21,788 bases of DNA from a virus. Of the stretch, positions 1,137 through 11,918 are shown one piece after another. The position numbers and the translations under genes are program-made. Under the pieces are notes generated by a model that did no database searches, had not been told where the DNA came from, and saw nothing but the letters and a program-made list of their open reading frames with translations. How positions within the stretch are numbered: the stretch's first letter is position 1; each line of letters begins with the position of its first letter. The stretch lies in the IMG/VR virus record IMGVR_UViG_3300025483_000082, positions 1 to 21,788 of that record; one strand, given 5' to 3'.

Positions 1137-1508
1137 TCAGAAGCTGTACTTGACACCCAATTTAGCACCGTAGCCACGGTCGATGTCCTCATCGCCAGAT
1201 CCGACGAATGAGACTTCACCATATGCACCGAGAGCATCGGTTACAGCAAGACCCAGACCTGCCTTACCAGAAGGAACGGTGTCGCTCTCACCGCCGTCAG
1301 GAGAGACTACAGTAGCTCCGCCCTGGACGTAGTAGGAAGCAGACTCACCAAGAGCACCTTCGTACCCTACGTGAAGGTCTGTCGCGGTTCCAGAGTAGTC
1401 CGATCCCGTCCAACCCGAGTTTGCTTCTACGTTAACGTAGGGACCAGCAATCGCAGCGCCAGCAGAGACAGAGAGAGCAGCAGTTGCTGCGAATACAGTT
1501 TTGATCAT
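1137..1508 (-). CDS. Secreted outer-membrane beta-barrel-like protein, 123 aa
   Basis: The start is the ATG at 1508; an in-frame ATG at 1592 lies upstream of the predicted transcription start and so cannot be used. Residues 1-21 form a typical signal peptide (MIKTVFAATAALSVSAGAAIA, cleavage after AIA). The mature part has alternating short beta strands with aromatic and glycine patterns (GPYVNVEANSGW, DLHVGYEGAL, YYVQGGA, AYGEVSFVG) and ends in GVKYSF, a C-terminal Phe typical of the signal read by the outer-membrane BAM machinery. It resembles small porin-like or outer-membrane proteins found in some cyanomyoviruses. It has its own promoter and terminator, and its base composition looks clearly GC-richer than the AT-rich tail genes around it. 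A role in modifying the infected cell's envelope is inference; a virion protein is an alternative. Confidence 0.8.
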   Translation of the reverse strand: MIKTVFAATAALSVSAGAAIAGPYVNVEANSGWTGSDYSGTATDLHVGYEGALGESASYYVQGGATVVSPDGGESDTVPSGKAGLGLAVTDALGAYGEVSFVGSGDEDIDRGYGAKLGVKYSF

Positions 1509-1529
1509 TTGTTTTAATACCTTTTTACT

Positions 1530-1573
1530 TGCGGAATGGATACCCGCAGATGAATTGGAACTCGACTTGTTCC
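1530..1573 (-). promoter_or_regulatory. Structured 5' leader with two hairpins
   Basis: Between the predicted transcription start (near 1576) and the gene start at 1508, the minus strand contains GGAAC...GTTCC (arms 1569-1573 and 1557-1561) and TGCGG...CCGCA (arms 1544-1548 and 1530-1534). A weak AAAAGG ribosome site follows. The hairpins may protect or regulate the mRNA; this is inference. Confidence 0.4.
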
Positions 1574-1582
1574 GTTGAATGA

Positions 1583-1611
1583 ATTGTAGCACATGAAGCA
1601 GAGCGCGTCAA
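1583..1611 (-). promoter_or_regulatory. Near-consensus sigma-70 promoter
   Basis: On the minus strand: TTGACG (1606-1611), a 17-base spacer, then TACAAT (1583-1588). Both hexamers match the consensus at five of six positions and the spacing is optimal. Host RNA polymerase should read it without phage late factors. It drives only the barrel-protein gene. Confidence 0.85.
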
Positions 1612-5724: not shown

Positions 5725-5952
5725 TTAATCATCGTAAATTAAACATTCTAATTCTGATGGGTTTTGATCACAATAAAGTTCAAGTGCAGTGGGATCATGA
5801 TGATCTCCTGCTTCAATCTCTTCTTTGTGATTCTCAACATATTCTTCCAGATCGTGCAGTTCGCCTTCAATGTGACGACGCTGATTGGGAGAAATCATAG
5901 GGTTGTCAAGAATTTCTTTGTCCTTGGCGATATGGGTTTCGATATTTTCCAT
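5725..5952 (-). CDS. Small acidic conserved cyanophage protein, 75 aa
   Basis: A 75-residue, strongly acidic, helical protein (pattern IAKDKEIL, RRHIEGELHDLEEYVENHKEEIEAG) ending in a conserved-looking block DPTALELYCDQNPSELECLIYDD with two cysteines. It has a strong ribosome site (AAAGGAGA, about ten bases before the ATG) and a late-type motif 21 bases upstream that overlaps the stop of gp27. It is recognisable as a small protein recurring between hub genes in T4-like cyanophages, but its role is unknown; an assembly factor for the hub is only a guess from position. Confidence 0.65.
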   Translation of the reverse strand: MENIETHIAKDKEILDNPMISPNQRRHIEGELHDLEEYVENHKEEIEAGDHHDPTALELYCDQNPSELECLIYDD

Positions 5953-5979: not shown

Positions 5980-7367
5980 TTGCCATGATTAGATTCTACA
6001 TCACCATAAGAATCTCGCATTAATCTTAAGGTTGTTATAAACCTTCCGTTTAGTCCCGATGTAGAATCATAAGTGTGAGTAACTTCTTGTATCAAATAAA
6101 CACCGCTACTCTCTTGGTCATATGGTTCATCATCAACTCTTGCAGCTGGAGCTTTATTGACCAATTTAATGTCAATAGTATCTCCAGCACAAATTTCAGA
6201 ATTACCTGGAACTACAACTGTGGCGAGTTGATGCTTCAATAGTTCATAACGCATAAGCGACTGCGCTGAAAAATGTTTATGAAAGTCGCAAAACTCACTA
6301 GGAGTATCTGCTCCATCTTCTTCTTCATAAGATGCAATCCCTGGTTCATTATACCATGATTCATGATCTAGTAATGCAGAAACAATCCTAGTTGGGTAAT
6401 CCGAGACATTCTTATCCCCAAATGATATCAATGACGGAGTATTCTGTACTCCTAGATGCTTCATTTCTTTATATGCATCCTCAACGCTATAATGATACTC
6501 GTTATACTGTCCAGTTGAGTGATTAAAGAAAACCATCAAAGTAGAGTATTTTCCTTTTCTCATTGATGACATCACATCAACTTCAGAACCAAATGTTGCC
6601 TGAGAAATTGTAAATCTGTCATCAGCACCATCACTCTTATTTGCTGGTTTCTCGATGTATGGTCCCCAAGTATCTTCATCTTCTGTCTTTAACAAACTAT
6701 CTACAGAGAAGAAGTTATAACCTCTTTTGTTCTCCCAGAAAAAATATCCAGCACTACCAGACACAGTTTCTTTTTCATTATTAGTAGCACTTCCACTAGA
6801 ACTACCAGATGATGCAGTTCCACCAAATTCAACACTTTTGACTGCTAGCGAAGAAATGATATCAAATGGTCTTCTATTAGTTGGCAACATTTTTACCGCA
6901 AATTGTGTTGTTGCTTTTTCTGGGTAGATATTCTTCTGTGTCTTTAGATCTTCTCTGAGAATTTTCTTGATAACATCATCTGGTTTTCCAGTCAGTGGTT
7001 TTACTAATCTTATACATTCGTTGTTAAGTGCTTCTACAGAAATTAGACCCAAAGTATATGATTGAGTCTGATTTTTTGCATATCTATTACCAACTTTCCA
7101 CACAACCATCTGATACTCTGTTGGTTCTTCACTAGTACTAGTCTGAACTGTAACTACAACAGTTTCACCACCTTGAATAGGCAGATCATTCAGAAATCCA
7201 GCACTATCGACAACTGTCAAAGTAGCAGCAATGAATGGACTAGTAATACTTTCAACATAAGAGAAAGTATTGACCATTTGTTTGATGTCGTATCCCTCTG
7301 TCTCGCCAAGTTTGGCGATGGAAACACTTTTTAGAGAAAAATCTGAAGTAGTTTGTTTTTCTTCCAT
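5976..7367 (-). CDS. Baseplate hub protein, gp27-like, 463 aa
   Basis: The protein begins with a beta-rich domain (residues about 8-110) typical of gp27/gpD-type hub proteins: SYVESITSPFIAATLTVVDSAGFLNDLPIQGGETVVV, then SYTLGLISVEALNNE and KPLTGKPDDVIKKIL. A Ser/Gly-rich insertion lies near residues 180-205. The C-terminal part has VPGNSEICAGDTIDIKLVN and VYLIQEVTHTYDS...RFITTLRLMR, the tube-like domain that closes the hub ring. In T4 gp27 forms a trimer joining the tail tube to gp5. Its ATG overlaps the stop of the tape-measure gene (TAATG), and the gp5-like gene follows after one small gene, in keeping with a hub operon. T4 gp27 is 391 residues, so this is somewhat longer. Confidence 0.75.
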   Translation of the reverse strand: MEEKQTTSDFSLKSVSIAKLGETEGYDIKQMVNTFSYVESITSPFIAATLTVVDSAGFLNDLPIQGGETVVVTVQTSTSEEPTEYQMVVWKVGNRYAKNQTQSYTLGLISVEALNNECIRLVKPLTGKPDDVIKKILREDLKTQKNIYPEKATTQFAVKMLPTNRRPFDIISSLAVKSVEFGGTASSGSSSGSATNNEKETVSGSAGYFFWENKRGYNFFSVDSLLKTEDEDTWGPYIEKPANKSDGADDRFTISQATFGSEVDVMSSMRKGKYSTLMVFFNHSTGQYNEYHYSVEDAYKEMKHLGVQNTPSLISFGDKNVSDYPTRIVSALLDHESWYNEPGIASYEEEDGADTPSEFCDFHKHFSAQSLMRYELLKHQLATVVVPGNSEICAGDTIDIKLVNKAPAARVDDEPYDQESSGVYLIQEVTHTYDSTSGLNGRFITTLRLMRDSYGDVESNHGN

Positions 7368-10225
7368 TATGCTAACGTTCTAAGTCTCAGTTCAGTAAAT
7401 GCAGCAGTGCCTGTATCATTCATTCCAATTCCAGCAGCAACACCATTTGAATTTACTCCTCCACCAGATGAATTGGAAGTGGTATAGTAGTTATTAATGA
7501 TAGTTGGACTAGATGCAGTAGAACCTGCTCTCGCAACTTGTGCTGAAGTCGCCATGATAGGTGTTCCAGTTTGTGGCGATGCTGGTGCTGCAGCAATAGG
7601 ACTAGGAGTAGATGCTGCATTAAATTTCTTTTTAGCTGCTGAAAATGCTTTAGCACCAGATCTACCTGAAGCAAAATCCTCTCTTTTTGGTGGTTCTGGA
7701 GCAGTACCAGGAGTTTTTGCTTGTGCAGTGGATACTGCTTGCTGACCAGGCATTCTGTATAATGCTCCCTGTCCGCCATAATATGAATTATATCCTTGTG
7801 CTGTAGAAGACCAACTCATCGCTTCTTTACCAGATGAATTGGATAAAATAAATTTATTATCGGTTGCAACACCAATATGTGCCTGTGGTGGAGACTTCTG
7901 ATCCTTCATAACAAATACATCGCCTGGTTGTTGCTGACCATATGGTACCTGCTGCCAACCAGCATCAATCATAGATTTCTCAGCATCAGGAACATATAGT
8001 GATGATCCCCATGGTGGAGTGATACCTGCTTTATTGAATACTTTATTCACAGCATATACACAACCACTCCTACCACCATCAGGACCGTCTGCTGTGCTCG
8101 TTCCTTTCAAACTCTGTGCTGCCGATGCAAGATTCTGAGATCCTCCAGATCCAGTTTGAGCAGCTGCTCGGAATGGCGATCCTGATGCCTTAAGTGCAGA
8201 TAACTGACCCTTAACGGAAGAGAAACTAGTCAAAGACTTGTTAGTTCCAACTCCATCATAGTATCCCTTACCAGATGCATTTTCAGGAAGTGCTGCCCAC
8301 TCCATAGAAAGGTTCTTAGCAAATTGATCTTCATTAATCTTGCCAGACATAAAGTCATCAACTCCTCTCCTCTTAAGAAGTAATTGGAAGATCTTATCTT
8401 GTCCCGCCTTATCAAACTTAAATGATGATGTATCAATACCAGCATTCTTAAGAACTTCAGCAGCAGTTCTCATCTGGATCTGATAACGACCCATAGCAAA
8501 CTGACCACCTTTCTCTGACATTAATTGATCAATGTTTTTATTGAGAACCGATGCATCTTGTGCTCCACCAACCATCTTAGTGTAATCATTTCCAGACTCA
8601 AGACCACCAATAAAGTCTGCAAGTCCACCAGTACTGACTGAGGATAAATTTTTATTCGCATTAAGACCAAAGAGATTATTTAATGCACCACCTAGGAAAT
8701 TACCTAAACCTTTAGATAATCTCCCTATAATTGGACCAAATATTCCAGACATAACATTTCCAAAAAGATCACCAAATGCTTTAAATCCACCCCTATTTTC
8801 AAAATATAATTTAAGACCTGCTGACTGTAGATCAGCAAATTCTGCTTTACCTTTTTTCTGTGCCTCAAGAATACCTTCACCCATTGCTTCGAAAGTATTT
8901 TTGCCCCTTCTACCTTCTAGTGGGAAAACACCTTCTGCTCCAGATTCACCCATAAGGGCATTAGTCGGTTGTGTAATGATACCACCCTTAGCGAATGGCG
9001 TCATTCCCATATCTCTGGCAGCAAGAGCAGCATCAATACCAATTGATCCAACTGTGCCAACACCAGGAACTGTTGATGCTGCACCAGATGCTAACTCAAG
9101 ACCAGCACCCACAAAATCGCCCTGCAATGCTCTCTGTGCTGCAAAGACAGCACCAAGACCCAAACCAACTAAAGGTATCTTTTTACCTAAAGATTTTCCA
9201 ATAGCAGAACCACCAAGTTTTGCCGCTTGTTTTGCACCAAATTTACCTGCTGCTTTTGCTGCTGCTTTACCACCATATTTTGCTGCTAATCGTGTTCCTA
9301 CTCGTTCTACACCACGCTTACCAACTGCTTGTACTAATGCTCCAGTGGCAGCTTTGCCACCAATACCCATGCCAGGACCGCCACCACGTCCACCACCAGA
9401 TCCACCGCCAACACCAGGAAGTCGTGCAAATCTCTCTGCTTTTAAGAATGAAGAAAAGTCAGAACCTTTTTCTAATGCGTTTTCTTCACCTCTAGCAAGT
9501 GCTCTATTTGATAATTTATCTGCATGAGCTTGTTGCTCATTATGCATGGATTGTTGAGTTTTTGTCTGCTCGTTTGTTAAATCTGACAGACGAACAATTA
9601 CTTCAGTATTCTTATTAATAGCAGCGACAATATCAGCACCACTATCAGGTGAAATTGCAGGAGTATTTGCCGAGGCAGTTCGCATTTCCTGCGATTTTCT
9701 AAAATCTGCAACTCTTTGCGATTTTGTTAAATATTCTCCACTATCACCAACACCAGTTTGCGCTTTTGCAAAGAAATTTTCTGCATTTAGTCCTCCAGTA
9801 GGTGTAGATGCAACACCTGGCATATTGGTATATGTACTACCTTTGCCAGCAGTACCAGGAAGTCTTTTTGGACCACCAACAGTATCAACTTTTGCTCCTG
9901 TTTTTATATCAACGTTTGTGGGGTTTTTCTCAATGCCTCTATTAGAACCCTGCAGCATTTTAGGTACTTCTCTGCCCGAGAACATACCACCGCCAACAGC
10001 AGTATTTTCACCAATACCATATCCACCAGCAACTTCTACTCCACCTCTGCCAGATCTATAAGTAGTATCTTTCTTTTTCTTAAAAAGATCGTTAAATTTA
10101 TCCGAAACACCTTTTTCTAACTTTTTTATACCCTTCCCAATAAGCTCATCAATCTTTCTCTCAAAATACTTTGAGATGGGACTTTCGCCTGAAACTGGTG
10201 CTGGTGTTAGAAAACCGTGTGCCAT
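7367..10225 (-). CDS. Tail tape measure protein with lysozyme-like and CHAP-like domains, 952 aa
   Basis: Residues 1-60 are charged and helical; 250-345 are Gly/Ala/Lys-rich; 345-405 form a hydrophobic stretch (IPLVGLGLGAVF...) as in tape measures that cross membranes. The block at about 411-437 (FAKGGIITQPTNALMGESGAEGVFP) is a strong hallmark of tape-measure proteins. Residues about 530-650 resemble a lysozyme/transglycosylase fold, with a candidate catalytic Glu543 (GGLESGND) and the GRYQIQ motif at 579-584. Residues about 715-825 resemble a CHAP/NlpC amidase, with Cys722 (SGCVYAVN) and His783 (QAHIGVA) as candidate catalytic pair and a PGDVFVM strand. The protein should set tail length and, on ejection, open the peptidoglycan. 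It follows the gp26/gp51-like chaperone gene, the usual place for a tape measure. T4 gp29 (590 aa) has no such enzyme domains. Confidence 0.75.
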   Translation of the reverse strand: MAHGFLTPAPVSGESPISKYFERKIDELIGKGIKKLEKGVSDKFNDLFKKKKDTTYRSGRGGVEVAGGYGIGENTAVGGGMFSGREVPKMLQGSNRGIEKNPTNVDIKTGAKVDTVGGPKRLPGTAGKGSTYTNMPGVASTPTGGLNAENFFAKAQTGVGDSGEYLTKSQRVADFRKSQEMRTASANTPAISPDSGADIVAAINKNTEVIVRLSDLTNEQTKTQQSMHNEQQAHADKLSNRALARGEENALEKGSDFSSFLKAERFARLPGVGGGSGGGRGGGPGMGIGGKAATGALVQAVGKRGVERVGTRLAAKYGGKAAAKAAGKFGAKQAAKLGGSAIGKSLGKKIPLVGLGLGAVFAAQRALQGDFVGAGLELASGAASTVPGVGTVGSIGIDAALAARDMGMTPFAKGGIITQPTNALMGESGAEGVFPLEGRRGKNTFEAMGEGILEAQKKGKAEFADLQSAGLKLYFENRGGFKAFGDLFGNVMSGIFGPIIGRLSKGLGNFLGGALNNLFGLNANKNLSSVSTGGLADFIGGLESGNDYTKMVGGAQDASVLNKNIDQLMSEKGGQFAMGRYQIQMRTAAEVLKNAGIDTSSFKFDKAGQDKIFQLLLKRRGVDDFMSGKINEDQFAKNLSMEWAALPENASGKGYYDGVGTNKSLTSFSSVKGQLSALKASGSPFRAAAQTGSGGSQNLASAAQSLKGTSTADGPDGGRSGCVYAVNKVFNKAGITPPWGSSLYVPDAEKSMIDAGWQQVPYGQQQPGDVFVMKDQKSPPQAHIGVATDNKFILSNSSGKEAMSWSSTAQGYNSYYGGQGALYRMPGQQAVSTAQAKTPGTAPEPPKREDFASGRSGAKAFSAAKKKFNAASTPSPIAAAPASPQTGTPIMATSAQVARAGSTASSPTIINNYYTTSNSSGGGVNSNGVAAGIGMNDTGTAAFTELRLRTLA

Positions 10226-11120
10226 TACTGCCTTGCTGCTTTTTCTTGTTCTTGTTTGACCTGTTCTAGGTATTGCATGAGGAGACTAGTATAAACTTGC
10301 CTCTCCCAAGGCATCATATTTTCAATTTCACTCAAACTATATTTATGATGTTGCATCAAAGCAAAATTAGTCTTGTAATACCCCTCTAACGTGTTATGAA
10401 AGAGGCTTATCCGAAAAAATTGGATAATCCTTGAATTACAAAACTATTTTCAACACCAGTATTTGGGTTTTTTAACTTAATCTCATGTTTAAGGACTGGC
10501 ATCTCAGAGAAAAATTCCTGAACTTTTTCAAATTGCTTATTTGTCAATCCTTCAACAAATTCTACAAATTCTTTCTTTGATGTGGTAGAACTGTCATATA
10601 CATCTTCCCCATCAAAAATTTGATCAACACATTTTGCCATAATCTCCAAGACGTTATCAGCACTTGATTGCACACCAGCAATAGACACTTTGACAAATTC
10701 TTCAAATGAAGGATACTTCATAATGAGTCCAACATCGTCTGACAGCATGATTTTATTAGAATAATCTTCTGATTTAATAACTTGGACCTCTGTCAAATTA
10801 AGATTGTACTTAATTTGAGTTTCGCCATCATCTTCGCAAGTTAGCATCATTTCAACAACTTCGCCAACTGACACAGCACGAATGTTGAGAAAAATATACT
10901 CCAAATCAAAAATTGCTAAATCTTCAAGTTTTACTCTTGATTGAATACAACCTTTCAAGAGTGTTCTGACAGCATCTTCAATTGCATTTTCATCATTTGT
11001 CTCAAGTGCCATCAAAAGCACTTTTTCTTCTTTTACAACAAATGGACGATATTTGATAGTTTTGCCAGATGAAGGAATTTCCAACTCATAGGTTGGAAGG
11101 ACAATTTGTGGTAATGCCAT
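10225..11120 (-). CDS. Predicted -1 frameshift product: gp26 fused to a gp51-like tail, 298 aa
   Basis: If ribosomes slip one base back at the T TTT TTC heptamer (10419-10413), translation bypasses the gp26 stop at 10407. It then continues for 62 codons (RISLFHNTLEGYYK..., then MQHHKYSLSEIENMMPWERQVY..., ending EQEKAARQ) to a TAA that overlaps the tape-measure ATG. The extension is an acidic amphipathic helix segment resembling hub-assembly or tail-chaperone C-terminal domains (T4 gp51, lambda T). It has no convincing start of its own with a ribosome site; the only ATG, at 10356, would give a 43-residue protein with no Shine-Dalgarno. The arrangement matches the G/GT tail assembly chaperones that sit directly before tape-measure genes in many phages. 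The frameshift itself is inferred from sequence. Confidence 0.6.
10383..10419 (-). promoter_or_regulatory. Programmed -1 ribosomal frameshift signal
   Basis: On the minus strand the zero-frame codons AAT TTT TTC contain the slippery heptamer T TTT TTC (10419-10413), two codons before the gp26 TAA. After a seven-base spacer a stem CCTCT/AGAGG (10405-10401 with 10387-10383, 13-base loop) could act as stimulator. The -1 frame is open from here to 10225. Confidence 0.6.
10407..11120 (-). CDS. 26: Baseplate hub assembly protein gp26, 237 aa
   Basis: The N-terminus (MALPQIVLPTYELEIPSSGKTIKYRPFVVKEEKVLLMALET) is the characteristic opening of the gp26 family: a short beta segment, then a YRPF-VKEEK motif leading into helices. 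The rest is alpha/beta and acidic, with a C-terminal segment HEIKLKNPNTGVENSFVIQGLSNFFG. T4 gp26 is about 208 residues and is needed for hub assembly; proteins in this position act like tail assembly chaperones. The ATG lies 25 bases after a late-type motif. The next gene is the tape measure, and the stop at 10407 is preceded by a slippery site, so this is probably the shorter, major product of a two-product gene. Confidence 0.75.
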   Translation of the reverse strand: MALPQIVLPTYELEIPSSGKTIKYRPFVVKEEKVLLMALETNDENAIEDAVRTLLKGCIQSRVKLEDLAIFDLEYIFLNIRAVSVGEVVEMMLTCEDDGETQIKYNLNLTEVQVIKSEDYSNKIMLSDDVGLIMKYPSFEEFVKVSIAGVQSSADNVLEIMAKCVDQIFDGEDVYDSSTTSKKEFVEFVEGLTNKQFEKVQEFFSEMPVLKHEIKLKNPNTGVENSFVIQGLSNFFG

Positions 11121-11204: not shown

Positions 11205-11918
11205 TCAGTCTTCCGTTTTTGGTATCCATAATTCTGAATTTTTAATATCATTTTTAATCACATGATGTCTCATGTAGGAGAACTGTGCTGTTACCTGAGT
11301 GATCTGACTAGATCCAAACTGTAGAGGTACAGCATCAATAGCATATGGATATGCTTTCTCTAAGATGTATGTAATAGGTGATCTTTGTGTGCTAGATGAT
11401 GGACCTTGTTCTGTCTTTGATATGGCAATATCACAAACATAGTCATCTCTATAGTTTAAACGAATATTTCTATTCTCTGGAAACTTTGTATCTTGTCCAA
11501 ATGCATCAGATTGCATTGCAGTGGATGACTGTCCTGTCTTATTTTCTCCCATCTCACCATAATTTACATCACCTGAGAAAATCAAATCCATCCAATCTTG
11601 CAAATATTTCAACGAAGTCATGTTGGCATCACACATAAAACCTAACTGAAACTCCGTGAATACTCTAGTATGTGGATAACTTACAGAACCACTGCCAACA
11701 TAGATGCCAGTTGTCTGACCTTGTGCGGTATTAGTGTTAGGCAACTGTGCTTCGTTGCAGAACATCTCAAAGTAATCACTAGTGCCACTAACCCCATAGG
11801 ATCCACCAGGAATGGGAGTTAATCCTGCTGGTGGATTAAGAAACTTTACGATAAAGTTATTACTGAACGACATTCCGCCATTCGCTGCCATGGTTGATAA
11901 CAGGCGATTAATTGACAC
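11205..11918 (-). CDS. Tail-tube-fold protein, candidate tube initiator (gp54/gp19-like), 237 aa
   Basis: The N-terminal pattern (SINRLLSTMAANGGMSFSNNFIVKF) followed by YFEMFCNEAQLPNTN, VSYPHTRVFTEFQLGFMCDANMTSLKYLQDWMDLIF is typical of the T4 gp19 tail-tube family: beta strands, a loop with the peptide E-A-x-L-P, then the helix after TSLKYLQDW. The C-terminus (ITYILEKAYPYAIDAVPLQFG...ITQVTAQFSYMRHHV) matches the closing strands of the same fold. T4 builds its tube start from gp48 and gp54, both of this fold. Because the gene sits among baseplate genes and opposite gp48, a gp54-like initiator role is likely, but a tube subunit paralogue is possible. The start is GTG at 11918; the next ATG, at 11891, would remove the conserved-looking first nine residues. 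No strong ribosome site is visible. Confidence 0.65.
   Translation of the reverse strand: MSINRLLSTMAANGGMSFSNNFIVKFLNPPAGLTPIPGGSYGVSGTSDYFEMFCNEAQLPNTNTAQGQTTGIYVGSGSVSYPHTRVFTEFQLGFMCDANMTSLKYLQDWMDLIFSGDVNYGEMGENKTGQSSTAMQSDAFGQDTKFPENRNIRLNYRDDYVCDIAISKTEQGPSSSTQRSPITYILEKAYPYAIDAVPLQFGSSQITQVTAQFSYMRHHVIKNDIKNSELWIPKTED

Follow-up and report, generated by a model that had tools for sequence, protein, structure and literature searches.

A predicted programmed -1 ribosomal frameshift joins gp26 to a gp51-like tail in T4-like cyanophages and their relatives

The DNA analysed here is IMG/VR virus record IMGVR_UViG_3300025483_000082, positions 1 to 21,788, a 21.8-kb genome fragment referred to below as the window. 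It carries a single gp26-like gene that ends in a slippery heptamer and is followed in the -1 frame by a tail related to T4 gp51. On sequence grounds, a programmed -1 ribosomal frameshift at this heptamer very probably lets one gene yield a tail assembly chaperone (TAC) in two forms. A conserved slippery site, selection on the -1 frame, a 3' stem, homology with gp51 and a TAC-like predicted fold together support a TAC-N/TAC-NC system of the lambda G/GT kind. The elements concerned are as follows.

10407-11120, minus strand: gp26-like gene in the zero frame, 237 amino acids (PF12322 T4_baseplate, E-value 2.7e-70; phrog_150)
10419-10413, minus strand: slippery heptamer T TTT TTC, codons AAT TTT TTC, in phase
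10407-10412, minus strand: 6-nucleotide spacer GGATAA, which includes the zero-frame stop TAA (10409-10407)
10406-10380, minus strand: stem-loop of 27 nucleotides, arms 10406-10399 and 10387-10380, minimum free energy (MFE) -8.0 kcal/mol
10225-10413, minus strand: -1 frame tail, 62 codons and TAA, a gp51-like C-terminal extension
10354-10356, minus strand: first ATG of the -1 tail; the truncated 'g51' of the S-RSM4 record starts at the corresponding position

The last codons of gp26 in the window are AAT (10421-10419), TTT (10418-10416), TTC (10415-10413), GGA and TAA, placing T TTT TTC two codons before the stop, as a preliminary description of this DNA had stated. The -1 frame reads CGG (10413-10411) ATA AGC and continues up to TAA (10227-10225), which shares one base with the tape-measure ATG (10225-10223); the 62 open codons and the overlap given in that description were both recovered. 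Residues 1-236 of gp26 and the tail would form a predicted product of 298 amino acids, TAC-NC (GT-like), which reads ...LSNFF-RISLF... across the slip point and has LSNFFRISLFHNTLEGYYK as its junction peptide in the window. The tail matches the profile phrog_634, 'baseplate hub assembly catalyst' (E-value 1.9e-27). It had been called acidic; its isoelectric point is 7.0 and its net charge 0.

In the proposed mechanism, most ribosomes would stop at the gp26 TAA and release the short form, TAC-N, of 237 amino acids. A minority would pause at the stem-loop and shift back by one base on T TTT TTC, where the P-site TTT and the A-site TTC would re-pair with TTT TTT, and the translation of 62 more codons would then complete the 298-residue long form. 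We infer the slippage itself and its efficiency, and also that the tail would be made only as a fusion.

The gp26 genes carry roughly one further in-phase XXXYYYZ heptamer apiece, so that a single heptamer means little and the case rests on conservation across relatives. A total of 340 relative loci from IMG/VR and phage records were grouped into 163 clusters at 85% nucleotide identity. The canonical in-phase motif T TTT TTN is conserved near the 3' end of gp26, one or two codons before the stop, in 336 of the 340 loci (159 of the 163 clusters), and the -1 frame is open; this is the conservation that had been proposed as a check on the idea. The site is found in Prochlorococcus and Synechococcus phages, Methylophilales phage Melnitz, Caulobacter phage Cr30, Pseudomonas phage pf16, Stenotrophomonas phage Moby, the Straboviridae Aeh1, nt-1 and PX29, Sinorhizobium phage phiM12, Rhizobium phage AF3 and Desulfovibrio phage 7757.

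The heptamer could in principle reflect chance and Phe-Phe conservation beside an incidentally open -1 frame, given that Phe is usually encoded by TTT here (p 0.70) and that other heptamers occur in the gene. The codons tell against this. The codon before the site varies (AGT, AAT, TCT, GAT, GCT, GGT) yet is always NNT, and the final codon is TTC, TTT, TTA or TTG; as Leu (TTA or TTG) sometimes replaces Phe, it is the nucleotide pattern and not the amino acid that is kept. Comparable F-[F/L] dipeptides elsewhere in gp26 make the motif in only 14 of 338 cases. With this codon-level constraint, the absence of stops in the -1 frame and the purifying selection described below, a chance or amino-acid-driven heptamer has a negligible probability and is ruled out by the codon statistics.

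Across all tails the -1 frame holds no stop codon, whereas the other two frames hold 807 and 944. Selection was measured over the first 18 codons of the -1 frame in the 56 clusters whose first -1 ATG falls at codon 19 or later. The ratio of nonsynonymous to synonymous differences (pN/pS) was 0.32 in the -1 frame versus 1.18 and 1.30 in the other two, and 50% of the differences fell at the third codon position of the -1 frame. Judged by these ratios, purifying selection acts at the protein level on the part of the -1 frame that precedes any ATG, and this open frame extends the gp26 product. Stop-codon readthrough was also considered and rejected: it would give the wrong frame, and the zero frame beyond the gp26 stop is not open.

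These measurements bear on a second explanation, in which the tail is a small protein of its own (gp51) whose translation begins by reinitiation or coupling once the gp26 stop has been reached. Short gp51 genes are annotated from an ATG in public records, and in some lineages an ATG lies within 3-4 codons of the slip. In the window, however, the first ATG of the tail stands 19 codons into the conserved -1 peptide. A product begun at this internal ATG would lose the selected segment, which argues against a free tail starting there, and 10356-10354 is probably an internal Met of the fusion. No Shine-Dalgarno-like sequence was found before this ATG (10356), in agreement with the preliminary description, which had erred in calling it the only ATG, for additional Met codons lie further inside the tail peptide (ENMMPW). 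The missing Shine-Dalgarno sequence is weak evidence, as the gp5-like and gp27-like genes of the window also lack one. Separate translation would further leave the conservation of heptamer and stem unexplained, and T4 gp51 is itself one fused protein. We consider a free gp51 improbable.

The stem of the window has 8 pairs including G-U and begins 6 nucleotides after the heptamer, not seven as first described. The possible stem reported earlier was paired in another, 5-bp register, CCTCT/AGAGG; the best stem is the 8-pair one with arms 10406-10399 and 10387-10380. Among the relatives, the 45 nucleotides after the site gave a mean z of -2.4 against dinucleotide shuffles, compared with -0.3 for an upstream control. 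Against synonymous recodings that keep the -1 peptide, the stem had a mean MFE of -9.1 versus -4.2 kcal/mol (z -2.3), and 59% of loci were at or below the 5% level in this test. There are two main stem registers, of the CACTCTTCCA/TGGAAGGGT type and the GTATGGCTCA/TGAGTCATAC type, over sequences that encode homologous peptides, which suggests selection for a stem and not for one sequence. The stem is common among the relatives, not universal. A scan of 10200-10600 against Rfam gave no match.

The same region speaks to a third explanation, in which RNA polymerase slips on the T run and the mixed mRNA yields the fusion without ribosomal frameshifting. The site does hold six consecutive T, and some Melnitz-like loci read AGT TTT TTT TAA, with eight. 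Most sites, however, have six T followed by C, which is below the usual length for polymerase slippage, and a conserved 3' stem at a proper spacing is a signature of ribosomal frameshifting; polymerase slippage is therefore very unlikely.

Evidence for the role of the product comes from gene order and predicted structure. Two neighbouring genes matter here.

7367-10225, minus strand: tape-measure-like protein, 952 amino acids (by position, motif and a weak phrog_10093 match)
11205-11918, minus strand: tail tube protein, upstream of gp26 (PF23849 Phage_TTP_2, E-value 2.3e-81; phrog_45)

The gp26 gene lies directly upstream of the tape-measure-like gene and downstream of the tail tube gene. The tape-measure match to phrog_10093 (residues 404-443, E-value 1.1e-6) falls at a FAKGGIITQPTNALMGESGAEGVFPL stretch. 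Other PHROG families that match the tape-measure-like protein carry the labels endolysin and peptidase; such matches lead to public names of the endolysin or oxygenase-like kind, and the tape-measure role is easily missed. In an AlphaFold2 model of gp26 (predicted local distance difference test score, pLDDT, 85), the N-terminal domain aligned with the HK97 TAC 2ob9 (VIA-align Z 7.5, 78 residues, root-mean-square deviation 3.6); the other best matches were 3fgx (Z 7.5) and 5ir0 (5.3), well separated from unrelated structures, of which the next scored 3.0. A Foldseek search of the model against the Protein Data Bank gave no significant match, and the TAC structures stood apart only in the VIA-align comparison. 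Neither gp26 nor T4 gp51 matched a solved structure by sequence, and an NCBIfam scan of the gp26, tape-measure-like and gp27-like proteins was likewise negative. The moderate fold match, taken with the gene order, supports gp26 as a tail assembly chaperone with a short and a long form, in line with the G/GT-like role first suggested for it, and the sequence supports the gp26-like gene product as the short chaperone form (TAC-N, G-like). On the model of lambda G/GT, the tape measure protein would be coated by many copies of the short form and a few of the long one, whose extension would bring in tail-tube subunits; we infer the chaperone step in the window phage from this analogy. T4 gp51 is needed for assembly and is absent from the particle (PMC3004832).

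Several observations weigh against the frameshift as proposed. The naive chance probability of the site conservation, 10^-54, overstates the case because the relatives share ancestry, and the true figure is less extreme. The window's own stem is modest (shuffle z -1.9), and in roughly half of the clusters no single register gives an unbroken stem of at least 6 pairs. The fold match is moderate (under Z 8) and covers residues 1-94 only. In P-SSM2-like relatives an ATG follows soon after the gp26 stop, and separate initiation would be possible there. Finally, three Ackermannviridae loci (L090, L092, L093) and Vibrio phage D503 (L091) have no canonical heptamer and keep the -1 tail; their gp26 genes end in GAA ATT TTC ATT TAA or CTT TTC AAG TAA. 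Their tail may be made by a weak single-tRNA slip or by reinitiation. These are the only loci without the canonical heptamer, whose loss beside a separate tail gene the preliminary description had named as contrary evidence, and even there the tail has stayed in the -1 frame. Coodle has TAATG at the end of gp26.

Both gp26 and the tail belong to the family of T4 gp26 and gp51 (PF12322, phrog_150/phrog_634), and both T4 proteins match PF12322. The T4 arrangement of two separate genes is not found in the window, a fragment of its genome, which has one copy and carries the tail in the -1 frame; in a tblastn search, the window gp26 matched 935 phage records, at a single place in each. The gp26-tail fusion is collinear end to end with T4 gp51, through the slip column of the alignment, and also aligns through this column with gp51 of Aeromonas phage 31, KARL-1, phiP4-3, RB43, RCIP0002 and a Krischvirus. 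It is at this column that T4 gp26 ends. T4 gp51 thus corresponds to the fusion and T4 gp26 to the short form. The difference is that T4 obtains the two forms from two paralogous genes, which lie on opposite strands and lack a slippery site; none was found at the gp26 end in seven two-gene phages. In RB43 (L344 2501-3794) and Klebsiella phage RCIP0002 (L348 2501-3795), gp51 and then 26 and 25 stand in tandem on one strand. Together with the site conservation, the selection on the -1 frame and the stem, this homology bears out the fusion of gp26 to a gp51-like tail that was first proposed. In a tree of the gp26 domain, one branch (97/96) splits the two-gene set from the frameshift set, which includes the Ackermannviridae, and the gp51 copies cluster together (100/99). 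Frameshifting may be ancestral and duplication derived; the tree itself is unrooted, and some of its gp26 branches are long.

Loading of the tape measure protein is the task of gpG and gpGT in lambda, and G-T frameshifting has been called widely conserved 'except T4' (PMC5009743). As in lambda, the long form here would differ from the short one by a C-terminal extension (PMC5009743); the T TTT TTC site, the PF12322 family, the stem-loop in many relatives and the larger N-terminal protein set the present system apart. The TAC of Vandenendeviridae and Andersonviridae, as in phage Adele, likewise uses a -1 shift at a poly-T run before the tape measure gene and has its downstream part misannotated as a separate gene, but with the motif GTTTTT and in other phage families (PMC12846349). 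The preliminary description knew of no account of such a shift in T4-like cyanophages. Vladimirov, Gautam and Davidson (2022, Virology 566:9-15) are, however, cited as having identified the T4-like TAC genes; as cited in later papers, that work reports some T4-like phages in which the short form and the fused long form have a gene each (PMC10885494) and poly-T slip signals in T4-like TAC-N genes (PMC12846349). The core idea for T4-like phages has probably been published already. What may be new is the survey across cyanophages, the tests of codon use and selection, and the stem-loop.

In the comparison of Sullivan et al. (2010), whose main text does not mention frameshifting, cyanophage gp51 was about 20% of the length of other gp51 proteins, with some 200 N-terminal residues missing, and gp51 was listed as missing from Aeh1 (PMC3037559). 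The cyanophage 'gp51' of that study is the tail open reading frame, and the fusion supplies the 'missing' residues; Aeh1, though listed as lacking gp51, has the -1 tail. The tail is present in 555 public phage records. Of the records inspected, some give it as a gene of its own or as a hypothetical gene, and others omit it.

Elsewhere in the window, a CP12-domain gene (PF02672, E-value 4e-10; 5725-5952, minus strand), a host-metabolism gene within the tail module, lies between the gp27-like and gp5-like baseplate genes. A small protein encoded at 1137-1592 (minus strand) has a signal-peptide-like start and a beta-barrel-like repeat pattern and by eye resembles an outer-membrane protein.

A wider history can be offered tentatively, as possible though doubtful when taken in all its parts. 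Frameshifting would be ancestral and still the majority state in the T4 superfamily, with the stem-loop in lineage-specific registers; gp26/gp51 would have been duplicated once, after which the product was fixed and the site lost, and the cyanophage account with its stem-loop may be unpublished. The frameshift explains why cyanophage gp51 appears 80% shorter than T4 gp51 and why gp51 seemed absent from Aeh1, and it presents an evolutionary contrast in which frameshifting and gene duplication would do the same job.

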